Source: Orenia metallireducens (GTDB lineage Bacteria > Bacillota > Halanaerobiia > Halobacteroidales > Halobacteroidaceae). Taken from it: DNA of 64,000 bases. Numbering within the stretch: position 1 is the first letter of the stretch; each line of letters starts with the position of its first letter. Both the position numbers and the translations under genes were made by a program. The DNA lies in NCBI RefSeq assembly GCF_001693735.1, contig NZ_LWDV01000010.1:345963-409962 (forward strand), in the 5' to 3' direction. The notes beneath the pieces are model-generated. The model was not told where the DNA came from. It made no database searches and saw only the letters and a program-made list of their open reading frames with translations. Positions 52,029 to 64,000 of the stretch are shown one piece after another.

Positions 52029-53330
52029 TCAATTTTTCACTCTCTCTTCAACTACAACAGGCTCTTCTATCTCTTCATCTTCATCATCAATCTTCTCTAA
52101 TTTAACCCTAAATCTAATTTCACTACCATAATCAAAGATATACATTATCTCTTGCCCTTCTTCTAATCCAAGCTCTCCAATCTGGAAATCATCAGTGTTT
52201 GCTCCACTATCTCTAGGATCACTAATAGCTTCTCCAGACCAAGCTTTTCCATCCATGAAAAAAGCATAAAGATGGTCATCCCAAAAATCAAAAACACCCG
52301 CAATAGATAGATGTAAATCTTCTAAGGTATGCTTAGCACTAAGCTTAACCCGACACCAATTACTTCGATTTAAGATAATTTTGAATAAATAATTACCTTC
52401 TTTAAATCCATCTTCTTCACTATCTCTATGAAGAGTATTTTTTAGCTCTCCTTCTGGAAAAACTGAAATGAAAGCTTCAATAAACTTCTCCTCTTCCCAC
52501 TCTTCAAATTCTTCTATATCTTTATCACCATCTTCACTATCAGACATCATGCTACCCCCTTCACCAAAGATAAAAAAGAATTCATCAAAAGGGTCAGACT
52601 CTTTAATAGCTAAAGGAGCACCTGGCTTGCCTTTAAAATCACCTAGCTTTTTTCTTTGGGATAAATTCCAATAATCTAGCTTCCTTGTTAGACCTAATAT
52701 TTTCATCATTATAAATCCAAAGGGAGTAATTTCAATAGTTTTTCCAATATAAGTGCTTTTAGAGTAACCCTCCTTAGGTTTATAAGTGACCTCCCAAAAA
52801 CCAAAATGAGAGAAATAAACTAAAAAATATCCCCAGAAAAATAAATCTGAAGTTATTCTCTTTAACGTATGTATTTCTCCTATAATATTCTTATCTATTC
52901 TCTCAATCCAAATTGAAAATGAACCTAAAGGATTTTTACCTATTCCTCCTTCCTGCAATTTATCCCAATCACAATCAACCCAGAAAGTTTCTAACAAAAA
53001 GATATATCTTTCTGTTAAAGTTAGTTTTTTGTACTCCTTTAATCGCTCTGTGGGAATAAGAAATATTTTACTCCCCTTTCTCTCTTTTTTAAATAGTCCT
53101 CCTTCTACTACTAGATTATAAAATAGATGCAACACTGGATAAATTCTCTGGTGACTCTTTTTAGTTGTATCTGCTACTTGTTCTGACATTAGCTGATTAA
53201 GCCTAAATAAGTCTGGTCCCTTTAAGTTTTCACTGGTTCTAGTCAATTCAATTTTATTCTTCTCTAAATATTCAATAAATTGTGGGAAATCTTTCATAAT
53301 TGGAATTTCTTCTGTTATATGTAATTTCAT
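52029..53330 (-). CDS. Plasmid pRiA4b ORF-3-like domain protein
   Basis: This is a protein of about 433 residues. The C-terminal 130 residues match the pRiA4b_Orf3/IS1096 TnpR-like family (LFKIILNRSNWCRVKLSAK, LHLSIAGVFDFWDDHLYAFF, EGQEIMYIFDYGSEIRFRVKLE). The first 250 residues resemble the helical region that often precedes it, and a Glu-rich stretch (residues 285-300) links the two. Despite the name it is not a transposase; the function is unknown. GGAG lies 7 bases before the ATG at 53330, which is better than the ATG at 53348 that overlaps the preceding stop. It lies downstream of the split SWIM-associated gene. Confidence 0.75.
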   Translation of the reverse strand: MKLHITEEIPIMKDFPQFIEYLEKNKIELTRTSENLKGPDLFRLNQLMSEQVADTTKKSHQRIYPVLHLFYNLVVEGGLFKKERKGSKIFLIPTERLKEYKKLTLTERYIFLLETFWVDCDWDKLQEGGIGKNPLGSFSIWIERIDKNIIGEIHTLKRITSDLFFWGYFLVYFSHFGFWEVTYKPKEGYSKSTYIGKTIEITPFGFIMMKILGLTRKLDYWNLSQRKKLGDFKGKPGAPLAIKESDPFDEFFFIFGEGGSMMSDSEDGDKDIEEFEEWEEEKFIEAFISVFPEGELKNTLHRDSEEDGFKEGNYLFKIILNRSNWCRVKLSAKHTLEDLHLSIAGVFDFWDDHLYAFFMDGKAWSGEAISDPRDSGANTDDFQIGELGLEEGQEIMYIFDYGSEIRFRVKLEKIDDEDEEIEEPVVVEERVKN

Positions 53331-53347
53331 CTTTCTCTCCTTTTTCA

Positions 53348-54391
53348 TTATAAATGACTTATTTCATCTAACAATGCCCGTCTCCTTTTAAACTCTAACT
53401 TTAAAGCAGAAAAACGTTTTTTCCAAGTAGACCTATCCTCTAGTAAATGAATATAAATACCCTTAGCTTCTTTTAAATATATAGCTGCAACCCGATACTC
53501 TTCTCTCTTTTTCTGAGCAATCTTCCTAAGAGCACTCTTCCAATAATACTCTACAATTTGCTTAGGAAACTCTTCTTTTAATCTCTTAGCAAAATTATCA
53601 AAACGATTAGTCCAGTAATAATAACTTTCTTCTGAGCAAATATCTAAAAGGATATTGAGAGCATCTTCTTTTGAACCTTTATCCAAACATATCTCTAAAT
53701 ACTCTTCAATATTATTATCCTTAGCTTTTTTGATAATTTCATCCTCTAGCAACTCAAAATCATTTTCTTTTAAAAATTCTTTTGCTCTTTTATACTCTTC
53801 ATAATAACCATTATTTCTAATAAATTTATATGATTTTTGCAAAATATCTTTAGCTTTTTTATAGTCACCTTGTTTTTTATGATATTCAAATAACCTATCA
53901 AGCATATTCTTACCTTCTTTTCCCCTTTTTAATGCTTGTTCTACAAGCCATTCTAGTTCTTCCAGATTATTTTTATTAGCAAAATAATTAAAATAATATT
54001 CATATAGTTCAGTAACTCTACCTTTTCCTTTTAGTATTCCTTCTTTTGTAATCTCTATAGCTTTCTTTATATTACTTCTATCAATATAAAAAGTAGCTAA
54101 ATCCCAATAATCCATTCCATATAATAACTTTTTATTCCTTTCCACTAAATAAGCTTCATCATCATCAAGCGCATTTTTATAAATATCCATCATTAATTCC
54201 TTATCCCAATCTGAAGGATTATTATTAAGTTTCTTTACCAAATGTCGCCATTCTTCCTCAGTTTCACAAATTTCAAAACAAAGATCAATTAAAGTATCAC
54301 CAAAACCGGAATTTTGAATTTTATATTCTTTCATAACTCTATCTATAAATCCAAACTTAACTCTAGTTGAAATATTATTACCTTCAATCAA
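53348..54391 (-). CDS. SWIM-associated/TPR-like helical protein, C-terminal part
   Basis: This is a 347-residue helical-repeat frame. The stretch NSGFGDTLIDLCFEICETEEEW followed by DKELMMDIYKNALDDDEAYL, NKKLLYGMDYWDLATFYID and GKGRVTELYEYYF resembles, from memory, the repeat region after SWIM zinc fingers. The only start near its 5' end is a TTG at 54391 inside the stop of the previous frame (TTGA overlap) without its own ribosome site. It therefore looks like the second half of a gene split from 54388-54657, through a frameshift or by stop-restart translation. Confidence 0.6.
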   Translation of the reverse strand: MIEGNNISTRVKFGFIDRVMKEYKIQNSGFGDTLIDLCFEICETEEEWRHLVKKLNNNPSDWDKELMMDIYKNALDDDEAYLVERNKKLLYGMDYWDLATFYIDRSNIKKAIEITKEGILKGKGRVTELYEYYFNYFANKNNLEELEWLVEQALKRGKEGKNMLDRLFEYHKKQGDYKKAKDILQKSYKFIRNNGYYEEYKRAKEFLKENDFELLEDEIIKKAKDNNIEEYLEICLDKGSKEDALNILLDICSEESYYYWTNRFDNFAKRLKEEFPKQIVEYYWKSALRKIAQKKREEYRVAAIYLKEAKGIYIHLLEDRSTWKKRFSALKLEFKRRRALLDEISHL

Positions 54392-55680: not shown

Positions 55681-56595
55681 TTAAGAATCCTTGGCTTTTC
55701 TTTCCCTACTCTTTTGAACATTAGCACAATTTCTACAGGATACACTACAATATTTAGTTCTAGTATTATTAGAAATAAAAGCACTATCACAGTACTTACA
55801 TCTATTAATTAATGTTGATTCATCAGTAACTGCAAAGGCATACACCGTTTCTATAGCAGTTTTTAGTGAATCAAACTGCCAAGCAATATTGGTTTTATCC
55901 AATTGATTTATTGTAAAACCAATTTTATGCGCCTGAAACTTACCTGCCATAATTGTAACATTCTCAGTCAAATTACTAGCTTCATTTTGATATATTAATA
56001 GTTGATTAAAATGTGAAGATATCATCTTAGCAAAATCTATTATCCACTTAAGCTGTTCAGAATAAAATCTTGAAAAGACAAGGTCTAAAACAATAGGTCG
56101 CTTACCATAATACTTAGGGGAATCTTCTCTCTTTACTATATCTACACTATTTCTATATTCTTTAATTACAATATCTCCTTTTTCTGCAAAAGGAATAAAT
56201 TTACTTAAATAATTACTTTCATTCATCATCTTTTCTTTAGTAAGCAAGTTATTTTCAATCAACAAGACTTTTTTATCCCCTATGACATTTCGATTATATA
56301 CACTGGCACTTATCAAACCTAATAAGCCATATTTTCTAGCAAATATTAAGATATCATTATTTAATTTCTCTTGATTTTCTTGATTATCTGCTTCTAATTT
56401 TAAAGCATTATCACCAAGATTTATTAAATCTAAAATCAAATCTTCTGCTACATTAAAGGGATTATACATAGTAAAACTAGCTTCTTTAGCTGGAGTAATA
56501 TAAACTTCGCCTGCTGAACTTTCCTTAATCTCATAATCACTATATTTAAGCCAATCAGTTGCAAATTGTCCAATTAAGTTGACTTTACCATCCAT
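55681..56595 (-). CDS. Uncharacterised protein with C-terminal zinc finger
   Basis: This is a 304-residue protein that I do not recognise beyond its C-terminus. Residues about 267-300 (CKYCDSAFISNNTRTKYCSV then SCRNCANVQKSRERK) form a Cys-rich finger with a basic tail, like the CGNR or Cys4 fingers of regulators. The first 250 residues are mixed alpha/beta with no signal peptide or membrane segment. It is probably a DNA-binding regulator: a perfect 12-bp inverted repeat lies 33-67 bp upstream of the ATG, overlapping a promoter. It follows the ATPase operon but has its own terminator and promoter. Confidence 0.55.
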   Translation of the reverse strand: MDGKVNLIGQFATDWLKYSDYEIKESSAGEVYITPAKEASFTMYNPFNVAEDLILDLINLGDNALKLEADNQENQEKLNNDILIFARKYGLLGLISASVYNRNVIGDKKVLLIENNLLTKEKMMNESNYLSKFIPFAEKGDIVIKEYRNSVDIVKREDSPKYYGKRPIVLDLVFSRFYSEQLKWIIDFAKMISSHFNQLLIYQNEASNLTENVTIMAGKFQAHKIGFTINQLDKTNIAWQFDSLKTAIETVYAFAVTDESTLINRCKYCDSAFISNNTRTKYCSVSCRNCANVQKSRERKAKDS

Positions 56596-56627
56596 CTACT
56601 CTTCCTCCGCTCATTTATTATTTATTA

Positions 56628-56662
56628 TATGTAATAGTTGTAATTGTTATAACTATTACATA
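56628..56662 (-). promoter_or_regulatory. Operator-like palindrome at the zinc-finger gene promoter
   Basis: TATGTAATAGTT (56628-56639) and its exact complement (56651-56662), 11 bp apart. On the minus strand TATAAT overlaps its downstream end and TTATAA lies 17 bp further up, so a bound protein would block this promoter. GGAGG precedes the ATG. Autoregulation by the zinc-finger protein is a simple hypothesis. Confidence 0.55.
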
Positions 56663-56740
56663 TCTCAATTGTTATTTTAATCCCCTTTTAGTTCTTTGTC
56701 AACTATTTTTGAAAAAATAAAATTTATAAGACAAAAAAAT

Positions 56741-56779
56741 AAAAAGAGGATTCTTCATTTTTAGAAGAATCCTCTTTTT
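56741..56779. terminator. Strong terminator after the DUF3686 ATPase
   Basis: AAAAAGAGGATTCTTC and its complement (16 bp, 7-base loop), with T-runs on both strands. It ends the flotillin/ATPase operon on the minus strand. Confidence 0.9.
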
Positions 56780-56831
56780 ATTTCTCTACTATTATTTGAT
56801 ATTCTTCTCTATTATCTCTCTTTAAGAAAAA

Positions 56832-59800
56832 TCAACTGTTTTTCATACTACTTCCTATCAATTTTAAACTTTCCCCTATATTATTCAATTCTCTAATTAC
56901 CTCTATTACCCTTTGACCATCCTGTTCTGACTTTTTCTTAAGATATATCTCTTTTATCTCTGCCCATCTTGCCTTTCTTTCTTCGCTCATTCTATCAGTA
57001 ACTTCATAGAACTTCAATAAGCTTGCCTCTGCTTCAGTTGCTAAAGTCTGGGCATCATTGTTATAACTATTCTCTATTAGTCTATCTATCTCACTATCAT
57101 TCATAATGGGGACTACCTTTTCCACAATCTTATTCATATTTCTATAAGAGCCTTGTAATTTAAATGGTGGCTCTGTTCGATATTCATCACTTTGGGAAGA
57201 GGAATAGATATACTCCATATTTACCTTCAATATCTCATCCCTTATCTTTAGACAACTCTCTAAGACCTTTAAAGCCTCTTCTATATCCTCTTCAGTATAG
57301 CTACCAGTTAAGTTGATATCACCTCTATCTCCTGTAGCAATAGCTTGAATTAACTTATAGATATCCTCAGGATGCTTCATATATATCTTGTTCAAGTAAC
57401 TATTTGAAGTAATAGCATTCTCTATATAGCTTAGCTTAAAGGCTTCTTCATTCTCCCTTAACATATCTCCTAGATTATATACATCAGCTCTATTTGCTAG
57501 CATATCAGGAATCTTAAACTTATCTCCACTCTCAGTATAAGGGTTTCCTGCCATTACTACAGCAACCTTCTTACCTCTAAATTCATAGGTCTTACTAATT
57601 CCTTTATAAACTCCTTCAATCTTTCTCTGCCCATCACATAAGGAGATGAACTTCTGCAAGAACTCTGGGTTTGAATGCTGGATATCATCTAAATAAATCA
57701 TCACATTATTGCCAATCTCAAAAGCTAAATTTAACTTTTTCAGCTCTTCTCTAGCACTGGCATTCTCAGCCTCTGCTGGATCAAAGGAGGTAACACCATG
57801 ACCTATAGTTGGGCAATTTATCTTAACAAGCATCATATTTAATCTGTTGGCAATATATTCTATCAAAGTAGTCTTACCATAACCAGGTGGAGATATCATC
57901 AGTAACATCCCCATGTTATCAGTTCTCTTGCTCTTTCCTGCTGTACCTATCTGTTTGGCTAAATTATCTCCAATTAAAGGCAGATAAACTTGGTCAATTA
58001 ACTTACTTCTTACAAAGGAAGTCAATACCTTTGGCTGCAATGCTTTAAAATTAATCTGATTCTTGATAGCTTCAATCTTCTCAAACTTTAACTTCTGAAA
58101 CTCTTCATATTGAGGGATAATATTCTCTTTAAAGTTATCTAGCTTATCAAAAAACTCTACAATATTTACCCTATATTCACCATTCTTAATAGATTGATGG
58201 GTTCCTACCAGCTTATCTATAACTATCTCAGATTTTTTATTGATTATTCTCCGCTTAGAATAATCACCTAAGATTAAAATAGATATAACCTCATAAATAT
58301 AGTCATTGAAATCTAATTTTCTCTCATAGAGATAAGATTTGACCCATTCATTTACTAAGATATATCTGCCCTCTAAATCATCTTTTAAATTCTCTAAAGA
58401 CTTCTTAAAATCTCCCTTAGCACCCTTTGAAATAAGGAAATTATTAAAATCTTCATATACTTCTGCTGCTTCTGTACTTACTACAAAATTCTCATGCTGA
58501 CTTATCTCTTTAGCAAGATATTCAGCGACGTTAGTAAATTGATGGGACTCTATCCAGCGGTTCTTAGCTACGAAGGATTCTATCTCTTTAGCTAATGTTG
58601 GAATAAATCCTTCTACCAATCCTCGCTTAGAGTATTTTGATATAAGATTTACAGTCTTTAACCTATTCTCCAGTCTTTCTTTTCTATCTTCAGCTAATTC
58701 ACATTCCCAAAATAGATTTGCGATGGCTCTAATTTTCGGATTATAGGAAGCCAACTCTAATTCTAGATAGGTATCGACTAAAGCACTTAATATTTTTGCT
58801 CCATCATGGTCATGAACACCCTTAGTATAATACTCTTTAGAATGGTTCTCTATGTACTTCTTTACAACCTTACTTAAATCTTTCTGCTCTTTTTGATATA
58901 ACTCTTCTAAAGAATTATCTTTTTGATATCCTTTGAAGATATTATAGGCCAAAAATTCTGCCCGATATACATCATCATTTTCAGATATAACCTTCTGCTC
59001 CCAAACCTCTTTATACTTAATAAACTCCTCTTCATTTACCTTCTCCCAAAAATCGGTACCAGAGATATGAAAATAAAATCCATCTTCTTTTTTAAGCAAA
59101 CTCAGTTCAGGTTTTTGACTATTGACTAAAAAATGATTATCTCCAAATTTAATAGTATTTTCATCTAAGAATAGATCCTTTTTATCTTTTAACTGCTTGA
59201 TACTAGATTCTTTCAAGGACTTTAACTTATTTTCAATATCATCAGCCTTGGTACTATCTCCAAGTTCTATTAGCTGTTCTATAATATCTCTAATCTTATC
59301 TACCATGGGACTAGTTGAAAGGAGTTCATTGATAGAGCTTACTTCTTCAAAGGACTTGACCCTATTTTTTAAGCCTTTAAAGATTCTCTCAGCAGCATTA
59401 CTCAAAGAATCTATCTTTCTATTCTTCTTTTCCAGTAATTGTTGCTTTTTTGATTCAAAAGTTGATATTATCTCTTCCCTTTTCTCAGTTAACATTACTA
59501 CAAAGTTATCAAAATCAGAGAATTTACTCTCCATCTCATCAATTTGTACTATTATCTTTGACATATAATCTTCGGTCTTTTCCACAGTTGTAGATAAATC
59601 TAAATAGTTTGATACAGAATGAGTCAATAAGTTTAGTTTAGAATAGAACTCAGACTCTTGCTCCTTAGCATTTAGATTATCTATCTTATTCTTTAATTTT
59701 GATTTACTTTGATTTAAATTAGAAAAGAGTAGAGAGATCTTATCAATTATTTCAGAGGTCTTAGTCGCATCCTCTATCTTTAAATTATTTACTATATTGA

Positions 59801-61700
59801 TTAAAAGCTCTAACTCCTCTGACACCTTTATTATCTTTTCATTCAATTCTCTTCCATCAATAACTTTTTCAACATCATTTAGTTGAACTTCTATCTCTTC
59901 TACTTCTTTAATATAAGGATCTAAGCTCTCATCCTTTAATAAAAACTCTACACAATCCTCTGATAATTTATCATTCTTCTCCTTTATGTTTGCAGCTAGT
60001 GTTTTGACTTCTTCTTCATCAATGAACTGTAAGTCCTTTAACCCAGCAATTTCTCCTCTTACTTTTCTTATTTTGGTCAGATATTTTACAAAATCATTTA
60101 TCTTCTCAAAAGTAGTATAACCTATTGCTTTGGCTATATCCTCTACTTTCTCTTCAACTTCCTTATATTGCTTGACTGTATTCTCTTTTATCTTAGTAAC
60201 CTTATCAAACTCTTTAATTGCAATTGCCCCTGCTTCTTTGATCTTTAAAAGGGACTCTTTTAGATTAAAGGCTTCCTCTTTATCTACCCAAAAATAATTA
60301 TTTATAATCTTTTCTGCATCTTTTACTATATCTATGTACAAGCCATAATAACTATCATCTTTTTTCGATAGATTATAGAGAGAATAACAATCAGCCATCA
60401 GCCTGACTATCTCTTTATTCCCTATATTATATAAGAACCCATCTTTCTCTTCTTCTTTTGCCGTTACTATACTCTTAGTAAAGGAGGTCTGCCAAATCTG
60501 GATGGTATGATTTCTTTTAGGCTCTTGTCCTGCTTTAAAGATAATCATCTCTCCATTATCAAAATGAGAATATCCATTACAGATTATTGGAGTCTCTATA
60601 TCTTGATGGATGATATTATAATTATGAATATAGTACTCTCCAGTTACCTTATCAAAAAAGATATATTGATAATCTTCACCATTGATTGAAGCCTTTTTAT
60701 TCTGAAAGACTATATTCTGATAGTTTAGTTCAAACCTCTTAAAGCCTCCTGATTGCAAGAAGATCCCATCAGGAAAGATTATTCCATGACCTTCAGGGAG
60801 TAATACTAGCGATTTTCCAATAGAATCTATCCGTTCTACCTCTTTTGTCTTTTCATTAAATACTATATATCTATAATTATCTTCCTGATAAGGCTTCATC
60901 TTAAGTAAGATAAGGTTTCCTACTATAGCATAAAAGATATCAGCATCATCAAGCTTCTGGTCCTTTTGCTCTACCTCTTCTGCATAAATCCCTTCCCCAG
61001 AGTTTGTATTATCCTCTATCTTTAAGGTCAAGGTCCCACCAATAGTCTCTACAAATACACGATCTTCAATAGAGATATGGGGATGAAGACCAGCAACCTG
61101 GTCTTCTCTTGTAGTCTCTTTCCATTCAATCTCTTGCTGGGTAGGATATGTAATCTCATGGCTGAATCTATTTCCCAAATAATCTATAGTCCCATCTTCT
61201 TTTAGCACCCATTTAAAACTCTTTATATCATCTACCTTTTCCCCATTTTGAAAGACCATATAGATAAAATTATCTTTCTCATGGAACTTAGCAAAAAAGC
61301 TCTCTTTATAATATTGATATAGCTCTCTAAAATCACTTTTAAACTGCTTATCATCTAATAAAGAGTAATCCTCTCTAGCAAATCTAGTTCCATTATAAGT
61401 ATATACAGAGAAGACATCACTTAATTTAGTTTCTGATTTCAATCCTAAATGGACATTGTACCCTAATATAATTTTATTGCCTATAGGAACTATATCTCTA
61501 GGTATACAGCTATTCTCTGTAACTATAGCTTCACTCTTCTTTAAAGTATTTTTAGTCTCTCCATATATCTCAATTCTTTTTTGATTCAACCTCTCTAACT
61601 TATCTTTTAACTCTGCTGAACTCTCTAGCAGTCTATTTCTAATAACATTATATGAAGCAAAACCCTCTTGCTTTTTCTCTTCTTTACTTTCTTTGCTCAT
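56832..61700 (-). CDS. Giant AAA ATPase with DUF3686 region (DNA repair ATPase-like)
   Basis: This is a 1622-residue protein. The first 450 residues are beta-rich, with repeats of the type IFYAIVGNLILLKMKP and FFDKVTGEYYIHNYN, and match the DUF3686 region annotated in such ATPases. Residues about 460-860 form long coiled coils. A helical part precedes the AAA domain near the C-terminus: Walker A SPPGYGKTTLIEY (about residue 1271), Walker B VMIYLDDIQHSNP (about 1337), sensor region VAVVMAGNPYTESGD. It has no signal or membrane segment. Start: ATG at 61700 with AAGGGG 7 bases upstream, 10 bp after the flotillin stop, so they are coupled. A link to DNA repair is only a family label. Confidence 0.85.
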   Translation of the reverse strand: MSKESKEEKKQEGFASYNVIRNRLLESSAELKDKLERLNQKRIEIYGETKNTLKKSEAIVTENSCIPRDIVPIGNKIILGYNVHLGLKSETKLSDVFSVYTYNGTRFAREDYSLLDDKQFKSDFRELYQYYKESFFAKFHEKDNFIYMVFQNGEKVDDIKSFKWVLKEDGTIDYLGNRFSHEITYPTQQEIEWKETTREDQVAGLHPHISIEDRVFVETIGGTLTLKIEDNTNSGEGIYAEEVEQKDQKLDDADIFYAIVGNLILLKMKPYQEDNYRYIVFNEKTKEVERIDSIGKSLVLLPEGHGIIFPDGIFLQSGGFKRFELNYQNIVFQNKKASINGEDYQYIFFDKVTGEYYIHNYNIIHQDIETPIICNGYSHFDNGEMIIFKAGQEPKRNHTIQIWQTSFTKSIVTAKEEEKDGFLYNIGNKEIVRLMADCYSLYNLSKKDDSYYGLYIDIVKDAEKIINNYFWVDKEEAFNLKESLLKIKEAGAIAIKEFDKVTKIKENTVKQYKEVEEKVEDIAKAIGYTTFEKINDFVKYLTKIRKVRGEIAGLKDLQFIDEEEVKTLAANIKEKNDKLSEDCVEFLLKDESLDPYIKEVEEIEVQLNDVEKVIDGRELNEKIIKVSEELELLINIVNNLKIEDATKTSEIIDKISLLFSNLNQSKSKLKNKIDNLNAKEQESEFYSKLNLLTHSVSNYLDLSTTVEKTEDYMSKIIVQIDEMESKFSDFDNFVVMLTEKREEIISTFESKKQQLLEKKNRKIDSLSNAAERIFKGLKNRVKSFEEVSSINELLSTSPMVDKIRDIIEQLIELGDSTKADDIENKLKSLKESSIKQLKDKKDLFLDENTIKFGDNHFLVNSQKPELSLLKKEDGFYFHISGTDFWEKVNEEEFIKYKEVWEQKVISENDDVYRAEFLAYNIFKGYQKDNSLEELYQKEQKDLSKVVKKYIENHSKEYYTKGVHDHDGAKILSALVDTYLELELASYNPKIRAIANLFWECELAEDRKERLENRLKTVNLISKYSKRGLVEGFIPTLAKEIESFVAKNRWIESHQFTNVAEYLAKEISQHENFVVSTEAAEVYEDFNNFLISKGAKGDFKKSLENLKDDLEGRYILVNEWVKSYLYERKLDFNDYIYEVISILILGDYSKRRIINKKSEIVIDKLVGTHQSIKNGEYRVNIVEFFDKLDNFKENIIPQYEEFQKLKFEKIEAIKNQINFKALQPKVLTSFVRSKLIDQVYLPLIGDNLAKQIGTAGKSKRTDNMGMLLMISPPGYGKTTLIEYIANRLNMMLVKINCPTIGHGVTSFDPAEAENASAREELKKLNLAFEIGNNVMIYLDDIQHSNPEFLQKFISLCDGQRKIEGVYKGISKTYEFRGKKVAVVMAGNPYTESGDKFKIPDMLANRADVYNLGDMLRENEEAFKLSYIENAITSNSYLNKIYMKHPEDIYKLIQAIATGDRGDINLTGSYTEEDIEEALKVLESCLKIRDEILKVNMEYIYSSSQSDEYRTEPPFKLQGSYRNMNKIVEKVVPIMNDSEIDRLIENSYNNDAQTLATEAEASLLKFYEVTDRMSEERKARWAEIKEIYLKKKSEQDGQRVIEVIRELNNIGESLKLIGSSMKNS

Positions 61701-61710
61701 ATCTATCCCC

Positions 61711-63765
61711 TTACCCAATTATCGATTTTATTGGATCATTTTCTACTCCAAGCTCTTTAGCTTTGTCCAGCAATCTACTTATAACTGTATTTGGAGTATT
61801 ATTAGAACTATCCATATATTTCATTATAGCATTGGAAATCGTAAGGTTCTTAATAGCTTCAGAATCAACATTAAAACTATCAATTAAAGTCTTTAATTGC
61901 TTTTGAAAATTCTCTATATCACCATTAAAAAAGGTGTCCTTTACATCTGTTAAAACTTTGGAGTTATTAACTAAACCATCTACTTGCTTACCAGTACTGA
62001 TTGAGTTGATCAGCTTATCAAAAAAGATAGAGTCTCCTCCCACGATATCTACATTAGCATTCTTCAAGCCATCTCTCATTATCTCTGCCTGTGCTCTTGC
62101 TATCTCAGCTTGAATACCAATCTGTGCTAATTCTACCTCTTTATCTTTATTTAGCTTCAATTTAAATTCTTCATGCTCTTTTCCTACAGCATCTAATTTC
62201 TTCATTGCTTCTGCTTTCTTATTGATTCCTTCTGCTTCTGCTAATGCTTTCTCTCTAATTACTTGTGCTTCTGATTCACCTTTAATCTTGATTGCTTTAG
62301 CTTCTGCAGCTGCTTGCATCTCTTCAACCTTAGCTTTTGAAGCACCTTCTGCTTCAAAGGCTTCTGCTTGTGCCTTCATTACTCTAGAGTCAGAGATTCC
62401 TTGTACAGAAGCTTCCTCAGCCTTAGCATCTGCCATGATCTTAATAGACTCAGCCTTTTTATGGGAGGTCTTCAATTCAGTATCTGCCATAATAACCTCT
62501 TTCTCTGCTAACTCTTGGGCACTTCTCTTCTCTGCTTCAGCAAGTTTGATCTTCTCAATTGCTTTAACCTCTGCATCACTTTCAGCTTTTGTAGTACTTA
62601 CTTTCTTCTCTCTATTAGCCTGTGCTATCTCTCTAGTATCTTTTATCTTCTCTTCCTCTTCAGCTACCGATTTCTCTACTATTACCCTCTCTCTGACTAC
62701 CTCTTGCATACTCTTCTTCTCTTTTTCTAAATCCTTCTCCTTGGCTATCTCCGCTAGCGAAACTATCTTTTCTCTCTCTGTTCTCTCTATCTCAGTCTCT
62801 TTTCTTGCTCTCTCTTGCTCTACAGACTCTGTTCCCTCTTTAGCTATTCTAGCAATAATAATCTGTCTATCTTTATTCTCTTCAGCAATTGAAATCTCTT
62901 CATCTGTCTTAATCCTTGTTCTTTCTGCCTTTAATCGCTCTTCTTCCTCTACAATCTTTATCTGAGAATTTTCTCTCGCTTTCAAATTAGCTATCTCTCT
63001 TTTTTGCTTCTCTTCTGCTTCAGCCTGTTGTCTTTGAAGTTCTAAGACAGCCTCTCTAGCACTTACATCCTGTTTTACAATTGTCTTCTCTTTATTTCTT
63101 TTAACTTCATTGGCTCTTATTGCTTGCTCAGCAGTCAATTCGATAATCTTTTTAATACCTTCTGAATCCAGGACATTATTCTCATCTAAATTTTCTATCT
63201 TTGTCTGCTCTAAATAATCAATAGCAGCATCATCTAAGACATAACCATTCAGGTCAGTTCCTATAACTTGAAGAATCTCTTCCTTGAAGGTATCTCTTTC
63301 AGTATAAAGCTGAGTAAACTCAAACTTCTTACCAACTGTCTTTAAAGCCTCAGAAAATTTAGCATCAAAAAACTCCATTAAAGTATCAGTATCAGAAGCT
63401 TTTTTAGTCCCCAAAGCTTTAGCTACCCTTAATACATCCTTTTCGGTATGATTTACCCTTACAAAAAAAGCAACTTTGATATCAGCTCTTAAATTATCTT
63501 TACATACTAAGCCAGCCTTACCGCTTCTTTCGATTTCCACTCTTTTAATCGATACATCCATTAGTTCACAATGGTGCAAGATTGGAATAATCCAAGTTCC
63601 AGTAAATGATACCTTTGACCCACCAATTCCATTTTTTATAATTGCAGTTCCTTGATCAACTTTCTTATAAAATAAAGTCAATAATATAGGAAACCCTATA
63701 AATATAAGAAAGGCTACTGCTGCAACTACATACAATATCATTTCCACCATTCCTATATCAAACAT
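61711..63765 (-). CDS. Flotillin-like SPFH/band-7 protein (YqiK type)
   Basis: This is a 684-residue membrane scaffold protein. One N-terminal transmembrane helix (about residues 8-32) is followed by an SPFH domain (about 34-210: KVDQGTAIIKNGIGGSKVSFTGTWIIP, FFVRVNHTEKDVLRVAKALG). A very long Ala/Glu/Lys-rich coiled coil (about 225-560) with repeated AEA/AEAE phrases follows, then a small C-terminal domain. Flotillins oligomerise on the membrane and organise microdomains. The layout matches YqiK/FloT. GGAGGG lies 11 bases before the ATG. It lies between the partial OB-fold gene and the giant ATPase, in the same direction as both. Confidence 0.9.
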   Translation of the reverse strand: MFDIGMVEMILYVVAAVAFLIFIGFPILLTLFYKKVDQGTAIIKNGIGGSKVSFTGTWIIPILHHCELMDVSIKRVEIERSGKAGLVCKDNLRADIKVAFFVRVNHTEKDVLRVAKALGTKKASDTDTLMEFFDAKFSEALKTVGKKFEFTQLYTERDTFKEEILQVIGTDLNGYVLDDAAIDYLEQTKIENLDENNVLDSEGIKKIIELTAEQAIRANEVKRNKEKTIVKQDVSAREAVLELQRQQAEAEEKQKREIANLKARENSQIKIVEEEERLKAERTRIKTDEEISIAEENKDRQIIIARIAKEGTESVEQERARKETEIERTEREKIVSLAEIAKEKDLEKEKKSMQEVVRERVIVEKSVAEEEEKIKDTREIAQANREKKVSTTKAESDAEVKAIEKIKLAEAEKRSAQELAEKEVIMADTELKTSHKKAESIKIMADAKAEEASVQGISDSRVMKAQAEAFEAEGASKAKVEEMQAAAEAKAIKIKGESEAQVIREKALAEAEGINKKAEAMKKLDAVGKEHEEFKLKLNKDKEVELAQIGIQAEIARAQAEIMRDGLKNANVDIVGGDSIFFDKLINSISTGKQVDGLVNNSKVLTDVKDTFFNGDIENFQKQLKTLIDSFNVDSEAIKNLTISNAIMKYMDSSNNTPNTVISRLLDKAKELGVENDPIKSIIG

Positions 63766-63881
63766 TCCAATTTATACCCTCCTTAAATTATGTTTTTATA
63801 TAAAAGAAGCTTTATACTTCTTTATATACAATATCTTATTTATATAATTTATGTAAGTTTCTGTAAACTCATAGTCAATAA

Positions 63882-64000
63882 CTATAGTTGCTCTCTTACA
63901 ATATAAACCTCTTTCTCCCTATCTTTAGAAATTACAACTGCTCGACTCCCCCTTATAATACTTTCACCTAATGATTTTACATTTATTATAATAGGATATC
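63882..64000 (-). CDS. C-terminal end of an NfeD/YqiJ-like OB-fold protein (partial)
   Basis: The last 38 codons of a gene entering from the right edge: ...INVKSLGESIIRGSRAVVIS then KDREKEVYIVREQL. The pattern G-E-x-I-x-x-G-S-R-x-x-V-I plus Y-x-V is typical of the OB-fold at the end of NfeD/YqiJ proteins, which partner flotillins. It stops 117 bp before the flotillin gene. Identity rests on a short piece and on the neighbour. Confidence 0.5.
   Translation of the reverse strand, partial: YPIIINVKSLGESIIRGSRAVVISKDREKEVYIVREQL

Follow-up and report, generated by a model that had tools for sequence, protein, structure and literature searches.

What does an AAA+ ATPase of 1622 residues, filed under a name that promises DNA repair, do at the end of an operon whose other products are membrane proteins? 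The question is raised by the right end of a 64,000-nt stretch of Orenia DNA (the window), part of contig 10 of a 3.47-Mb genome, where three leftward genes follow each other in the order NfeD/YqiJ-like protein, flotillin, DUF3686 ATPase. The answer to which we come is that these genes on balance probably form an abbreviated YqiJ/YuaF - flotillin - propeller-AAA+ operon, and encode a MoxR-like chaperone which would be coupled to a membrane scaffold and serve in envelope stress. The features on which the argument draws are:

63882..64000, minus strand: 3′ end of the NfeD/YqiJ-like gene, truncated by the window end; three transmembrane regions and a beta-rich C-terminal domain
61711..63765, minus strand: flotillin/SPFH protein of 684 residues (Band_7 match, hydropathy)
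56832..61700, minus strand: DUF3686 ATPase of 1622 residues, without a transmembrane segment (Pfam, alignments, hydropathy)
60483..61550, minus strand: predicted beta-propeller, ATPase residues about 51-406 (AlphaFold2 model; Foldseek and VIA matches)
56991..58058, minus strand: predicted MoxR-like AAA+ module of the ATPase, residues about 1215-1570 (AlphaFold2 model, fold matches, profile match)
56737..56783, minus strand: intrinsic terminator and operon end (20-bp stem and U-run)

The NfeD/YqiJ-like gene is full-length in the genome and encodes 217 residues (63882-64535 in window numbering; L002:7845-8498); it is separated from the flotillin gene by 116 bp, and the flotillin gene from the ATPase gene by 10 bp. 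The latter could start at a TTG (56832-61718, 1628 residues) or at an ATG (56832-61700, 1622 residues) which is preceded by an AAGGGG ribosome-binding site. Its product is 94% identical to the ATPase of the closest named relative, Orenia metallireducens. Thus, the initial annotation had described the locus correctly, as to the three leftward genes, the 1622-residue DUF3686 ATPase, the 10-bp gap and the strong terminator.

That annotation had also proposed that the ATPase is coupled to a membrane scaffold, and had tied this proposal to a recurring link between the ATPase family and flotillins; the link does recur. The neighbourhoods surveyed were those of the 80 loci that ranked highest in similarity out of at least 582, a sample biased to Bacteroidota, Planctomycetota and Verrucomicrobiota; genes were tagged with hidden Markov models in these 80 genome loci and in 6 plasmid loci, and 65 genome loci, in which the upstream sequence reached 2.5 kb or more, were evaluable. 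Of these, 61 have a flotillin gene upstream of the ATPase gene on the same strand, and 58 have an NfeD-like gene there; the order NfeD-flotillin-ATPase is kept nearly throughout the tagged loci and recurs across phyla. In each of the six plasmid loci, too, both partner genes were tagged upstream. At one of the four exceptions (L084) the two partner genes adjoin the ATPase gene divergently, and at the other three (L037, L045, L063) the cognate flotillin is encoded elsewhere in the genome. Some loci carry genes between flotillin and ATPase, mostly unrelated to each other and some of them transposase-like. Of 61 relatives, six have the ATPase, and the identical six have the flotillin, for which the chance would be 1.8e-8 with independent genomes, though these genomes are not independent; likewise, the pairwise distances of ATPase and flotillin are correlated (Mantel r 0.76 over 67 loci, 0 of 2000 permutations as high), a value to which shared species history contributes. 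A chance neighbourhood is rejected by the 61 of 65 loci and by the identical presence pattern in the relatives. The link between ATPase and flotillin is near-obligate, and gene order, co-occurrence and distance correlation together strongly support the coupling to a membrane scaffold.

The flotillin has a single transmembrane segment (residues 10-28 by hydropathy) and a Band_7 match (E 2e-11, with the N-terminal 230 residues scanned alone), followed by a long charged helical region rich in E, K, A, Q and R and by a conserved C-terminal part. The NfeD-like protein, in which hydropathy indicates three hydrophobic regions ahead of the beta-rich C-terminal end, matches no Pfam family by itself; among 15 aligned homologs, which form an alignable family, YqiJ_N is matched in three and NfeD weakly in two. 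Solved structures related in sequence were searched for both proteins and none was found.

The ATPase matches the Pfam families DUF3686 (1.5e-170) and AAA (2.2e-6). In an AlphaFold2 model of residues 1-700 (pLDDT 87.8), computed like the other model from alignments that left out the plasmid loci, an N-terminal helix is followed by the propeller at about 51-406 and by a long helical stalk; the propeller is matched moderately to WD40/clathrin-type folds by Foldseek and VIA (best Z 9.6 over 201-203 residues). The model of residues 838-1622 (pLDDT 88.5) contains the AAA+ module, whose best fold matches are CbbQ2 (Z 17.1, root-mean-square deviation 3.9, 253 residues) and NorQ (Z up to 16.3), both ranking above dynein (Z 14.4) and Clp. 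Alignment by hhalign with genuine MoxR proteins from these genomes (E 4.9e-5, probability 67.8) pairs Walker A, Walker B, sensor 1 and the subsequent "LPEAQxDR/IPDMLANR" motif. As judged from the model, the module folds most like the MoxR-type ATPases CbbQ and NorQ. Its motifs are a Walker A of SPPGYGKT (1270-1277), a Walker B of DDIQH (1338-1342), sensor-1 NP (1386-1387), a candidate arginine finger (R1404) and a candidate sensor-2 arginine (R1520); these motifs, N1386, R1404 and R1520 included, are invariant in alignments of seven and of 60 sequences. Separately, a strikingly conserved GVHDHD motif (residues 961-966, window about 58803-58820) begins a helix in the helical domain ahead of the AAA+ module; G961, H963, D964, H965 and D966 show no variation in the seven-sequence alignment and are less strictly kept in the 60-sequence one, and a metal or partner site is possible.

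It is hard to reconcile this anatomy with an ATPase of DNA repair, the function implied by the name which PF12458 carries in Pfam and in the Prokaryotic Genome Annotation Pipeline. The name itself and weak matches to RuvB-type P-loops speak for such a role; however, the AAA module most resembles MoxR proteins, which act on proteins, the constant neighbours are membrane proteins, and no DNA-binding domain was found. We therefore consider the role hardly credible, and the doubt which the initial annotation had cast on the label was justified.

An operon of this kind is already in the literature, and with it the coupling of ATPase and scaffold. Ravi et al. (2024; PMC11237479) place it within PspA envelope-stress operons, link it to envelope stress and explicitly describe abbreviated operons without PspA. 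The Orenia locus is of the same YqiJ/YuaF - flotillin - propeller-AAA+ type: it has a flotillin with transmembrane segment, band-7 domain and long coiled coil, a YqiJ/YuaF (NfeD-like) protein with three transmembrane segments, and an AAA+ ATPase that carries a propeller at its N-terminus and a coiled coil. The full form further has CesT/Tir-PspA in the same operon; no CesT-PspA genes are present at the Orenia locus, which is thus of the abbreviated form, for which they are not needed. The accessible text of PMC11237479 neither uses the name DUF3686 nor assigns the AAA+ module to MoxR; as the name was not found in the searchable literature at all, we match the locus to that operon by the description of the domains and by gene order. 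What is new here is the MoxR-like assignment, the quantified near-obligate link to flotillin and the dispensability of PspA.

The last point bears on a different idea of what the ATPase does, namely that it is a disassembly motor like Vps4 of the ESCRT system, with PspA as its substrate and flotillin only recruiting it. PspA was tagged upstream in 24 of the 65 evaluable loci and CesT/Tir in 23, mostly in Bacteroidota, so that CesT-PspA genes share the operon in about 24 loci; three PspA homologs are encoded elsewhere in the genome of the window, and pairs of PspA and AAA+ are likened to Snf7 and Vps4 by Ravi et al. (PMC11237479). Still, of 20 genomes that bear the ATPase, five lack a PspA match, including those of Rhodopirellula baltica and Chryseobacterium aahli, and two more have sub-threshold matches only, with the reservation that one PspA-less genome is a metagenome-assembled genome (L026) and others may be incomplete. 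Flotillin, unlike PspA, is present in every locus or genome checked; flotillin, not PspA, is the constant companion of the motor. That PspA is optional argues for a module acquired by some lineages and against a universal substrate, and the AAA fold is MoxR-like, ahead of other AAA classes; a PspA-disassembling motor is thus unlikely. In many Bacteroidota loci (L028, L044, L048, L055-L058, L064, L066, L067, L070, L071) a gene of about 235-270 codons, divergent and regulator-like, lies upstream of the CesT-PspA-NfeD-flotillin-ATPase operon; its product belongs to HTH_3/HTH_19, in some cases with Peptidase_S24.

The bac operon of Pseudomonas aeruginosa appears to be an experimental example of the operon type. 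It consists of six co-transcribed genes, bacABCDEF (PA14_16140-16200), has a putative sigma-54 site and affects biofilm formation (PMC2587700, PMC10948618). Here, bacC, of the short NfeD type, and the flotillin gene bacD (PaFlo3) are followed by bacE (PA14_16190), which is identified by gene order and annotation and has as its counterpart in PAO1 the listed ATPase PA3728; the operon differs from that of Orenia in the additional bacA (DUF2170), bacB (PspA-like) and bacF and in the putative sigma-54 promoter.

In phage-infected P. aeruginosa, PA3728-PA3732 are reported to be up-regulated in all samples (PMC12041424), which brings up a dedicated anti-phage defence system as an explanation of the operon. 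The patchy distribution (6 of 61 relatives) and the presence of some plasmid copies might be taken in its favour. Yet induction by phage fits general envelope stress as well, and PADLOC gave no match when ATPase and flotillin were scanned; apart from helix-turn-helix regulators, no defence family recurs among 140 neighbours, for which there was no control set, and the ATPase was found neither in 50,697 phage records nor in a scan of viral contigs. A dedicated defence function is thus very unlikely. The initial annotation had thought of a stress or phage defence machine: its envelope-stress half fits published work, while its defence half found no support in PADLOC, among the neighbours or in phages. 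That the ATPase gene is a mobile or phage gene was likewise rejected, with no match in phages or viral contigs and copies in 12 of 72,556 plasmid records.

How, then, might a membrane-coupled chaperone of this kind work? By analogy to other SPFH proteins, the flotillin would form oligomers that build a scaffold or cage attached to the membrane, and the NfeD-like protein would be its membrane partner; the soluble ATPase would dock on this scaffold via propeller and helical stalk, and its C-terminal MoxR-like AAA+ domain, the fold of which is predicted, would form a ring that remodels membrane proteins or helps to assemble them during envelope stress, roughly as FtsH acts with HflK/C or NorQ with NorD. 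As in HflK/HflC-FtsH, an SPFH scaffold and an AAA+ machine would meet at the membrane; however, FtsH belongs to another AAA clade and is a membrane protease, while the Orenia-type ATPase is soluble, MoxR-like and without a recognized protease domain. The MoxR-VWA chaperones NorQ-NorD and CbbQ-CbbO offer the closest AAA+ fold (Z 16-17), but here the AAA+ module is fused to a propeller with its stalk, and its partner is a flotillin. What is supported directly is the gene order, the near-obligate link of ATPase and flotillin, the predicted domain anatomy and the intact nucleotide-binding motifs; a role in envelope stress fits the published work on PspA-linked operons and on bac (PMC11237479, PMC10948618).

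Several points weigh against this chaperone. The complex of ATPase and flotillin is one that we infer, and the survey is skewed to the three phyla named above. Co-transcription is not required, as the three loci with the flotillin gene elsewhere indicate. Escherichia coli and Bacillus subtilis possess flotillin/NfeD-type pairs, and as a DUF3686 match is absent from both (they served as controls), the scaffold must work without the ATPase there. In P. aeruginosa, SPFH proteins are for the most part dispensable under laboratory conditions, as PMC13086221 reports. As to the motor itself, MoxR proteins usually partner with a VWA-domain protein; no VWA family recurs among the top 25 families listed for the 140 scanned neighbours, although no genome-wide search was made. 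Most AAA+ proteins have DE in Walker B; here, the sequence is DDIQH in every aligned member, the usual catalytic glutamate being replaced by aspartate, and hydrolysis may therefore be slow or absent. An ATP switch is conceivable instead, bound to the membrane scaffold and hydrolysing slowly or not at all, which would assemble a signalling platform and not unfold substrates. Besides the invariant DD, the combination of propeller and coiled coil, typical of scaffolds, would suit such a switch, and a similar acidic pair is found in the Walker B of DnaA. On the other hand, Walker A, the sensor-1 asparagine, the candidate arginine finger and the sensor-2 arginine are all kept, as in a working ring, and we give the switch little credence.

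Beyond the terminator, the gene after the ATPase differs in size from locus to locus, being an open reading frame (ORF) of 307 residues in Orenia metallireducens. In the window, a zinc-finger-like ORF (55681-56595, 304 residues) has a cysteine-rich C-terminal end and gave no match in a Pfam scan; it is preceded by a promoter-like TTGACA-17-TAAAAT and by a perfect 13-bp inverted repeat (ATATGTAATAGTT, arms 56651-56663 and 56627-56639), and is possibly autoregulated. The gene and palindrome pointed out in the initial annotation thus exist; as an operon member the gene is rejected, as it lies behind the terminator and has its own promoter-like site. Further downstream, 54684-54968 matches the CcbP-type calcium-binding protein family (PF11535, 2.6e-15), and 52029-53348 encodes a pRiA4b ORF-3-like protein. 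On the other side, upstream of the NfeD-like gene, an ORF whose middle is masked by N (64915-65526 in window numbering; L002:8878-9489) is flanked by the inverted repeat TAGCACAACGCGT / ACGCGTTGTGCTAG; together they are probably an insertion sequence.

For the biology of the family, two leads are corrected, the "DNA repair" name and the idea of PspA as a necessary partner. Tentatively, and as something possible more than probable, the operon may represent one more membrane machine of the SPFH-AAA+ kind, next to HflKC-FtsH and the complexes of prohibitins with proteases. In it, a flotillin/NfeD cage would near-obligatorily bear a soluble ring of MoxR type on an arm made of propeller and stalk, and would serve to repair complexes of membrane proteins without proteolysis and independently of PspA. 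With an ATPase as near-obligate partner, the question of what bacterial flotillins do becomes testable; if a MoxR-like ring acts on the flotillin scaffold, flotillin microdomains would be, at least in part, sites of membrane-protein repair or assembly.
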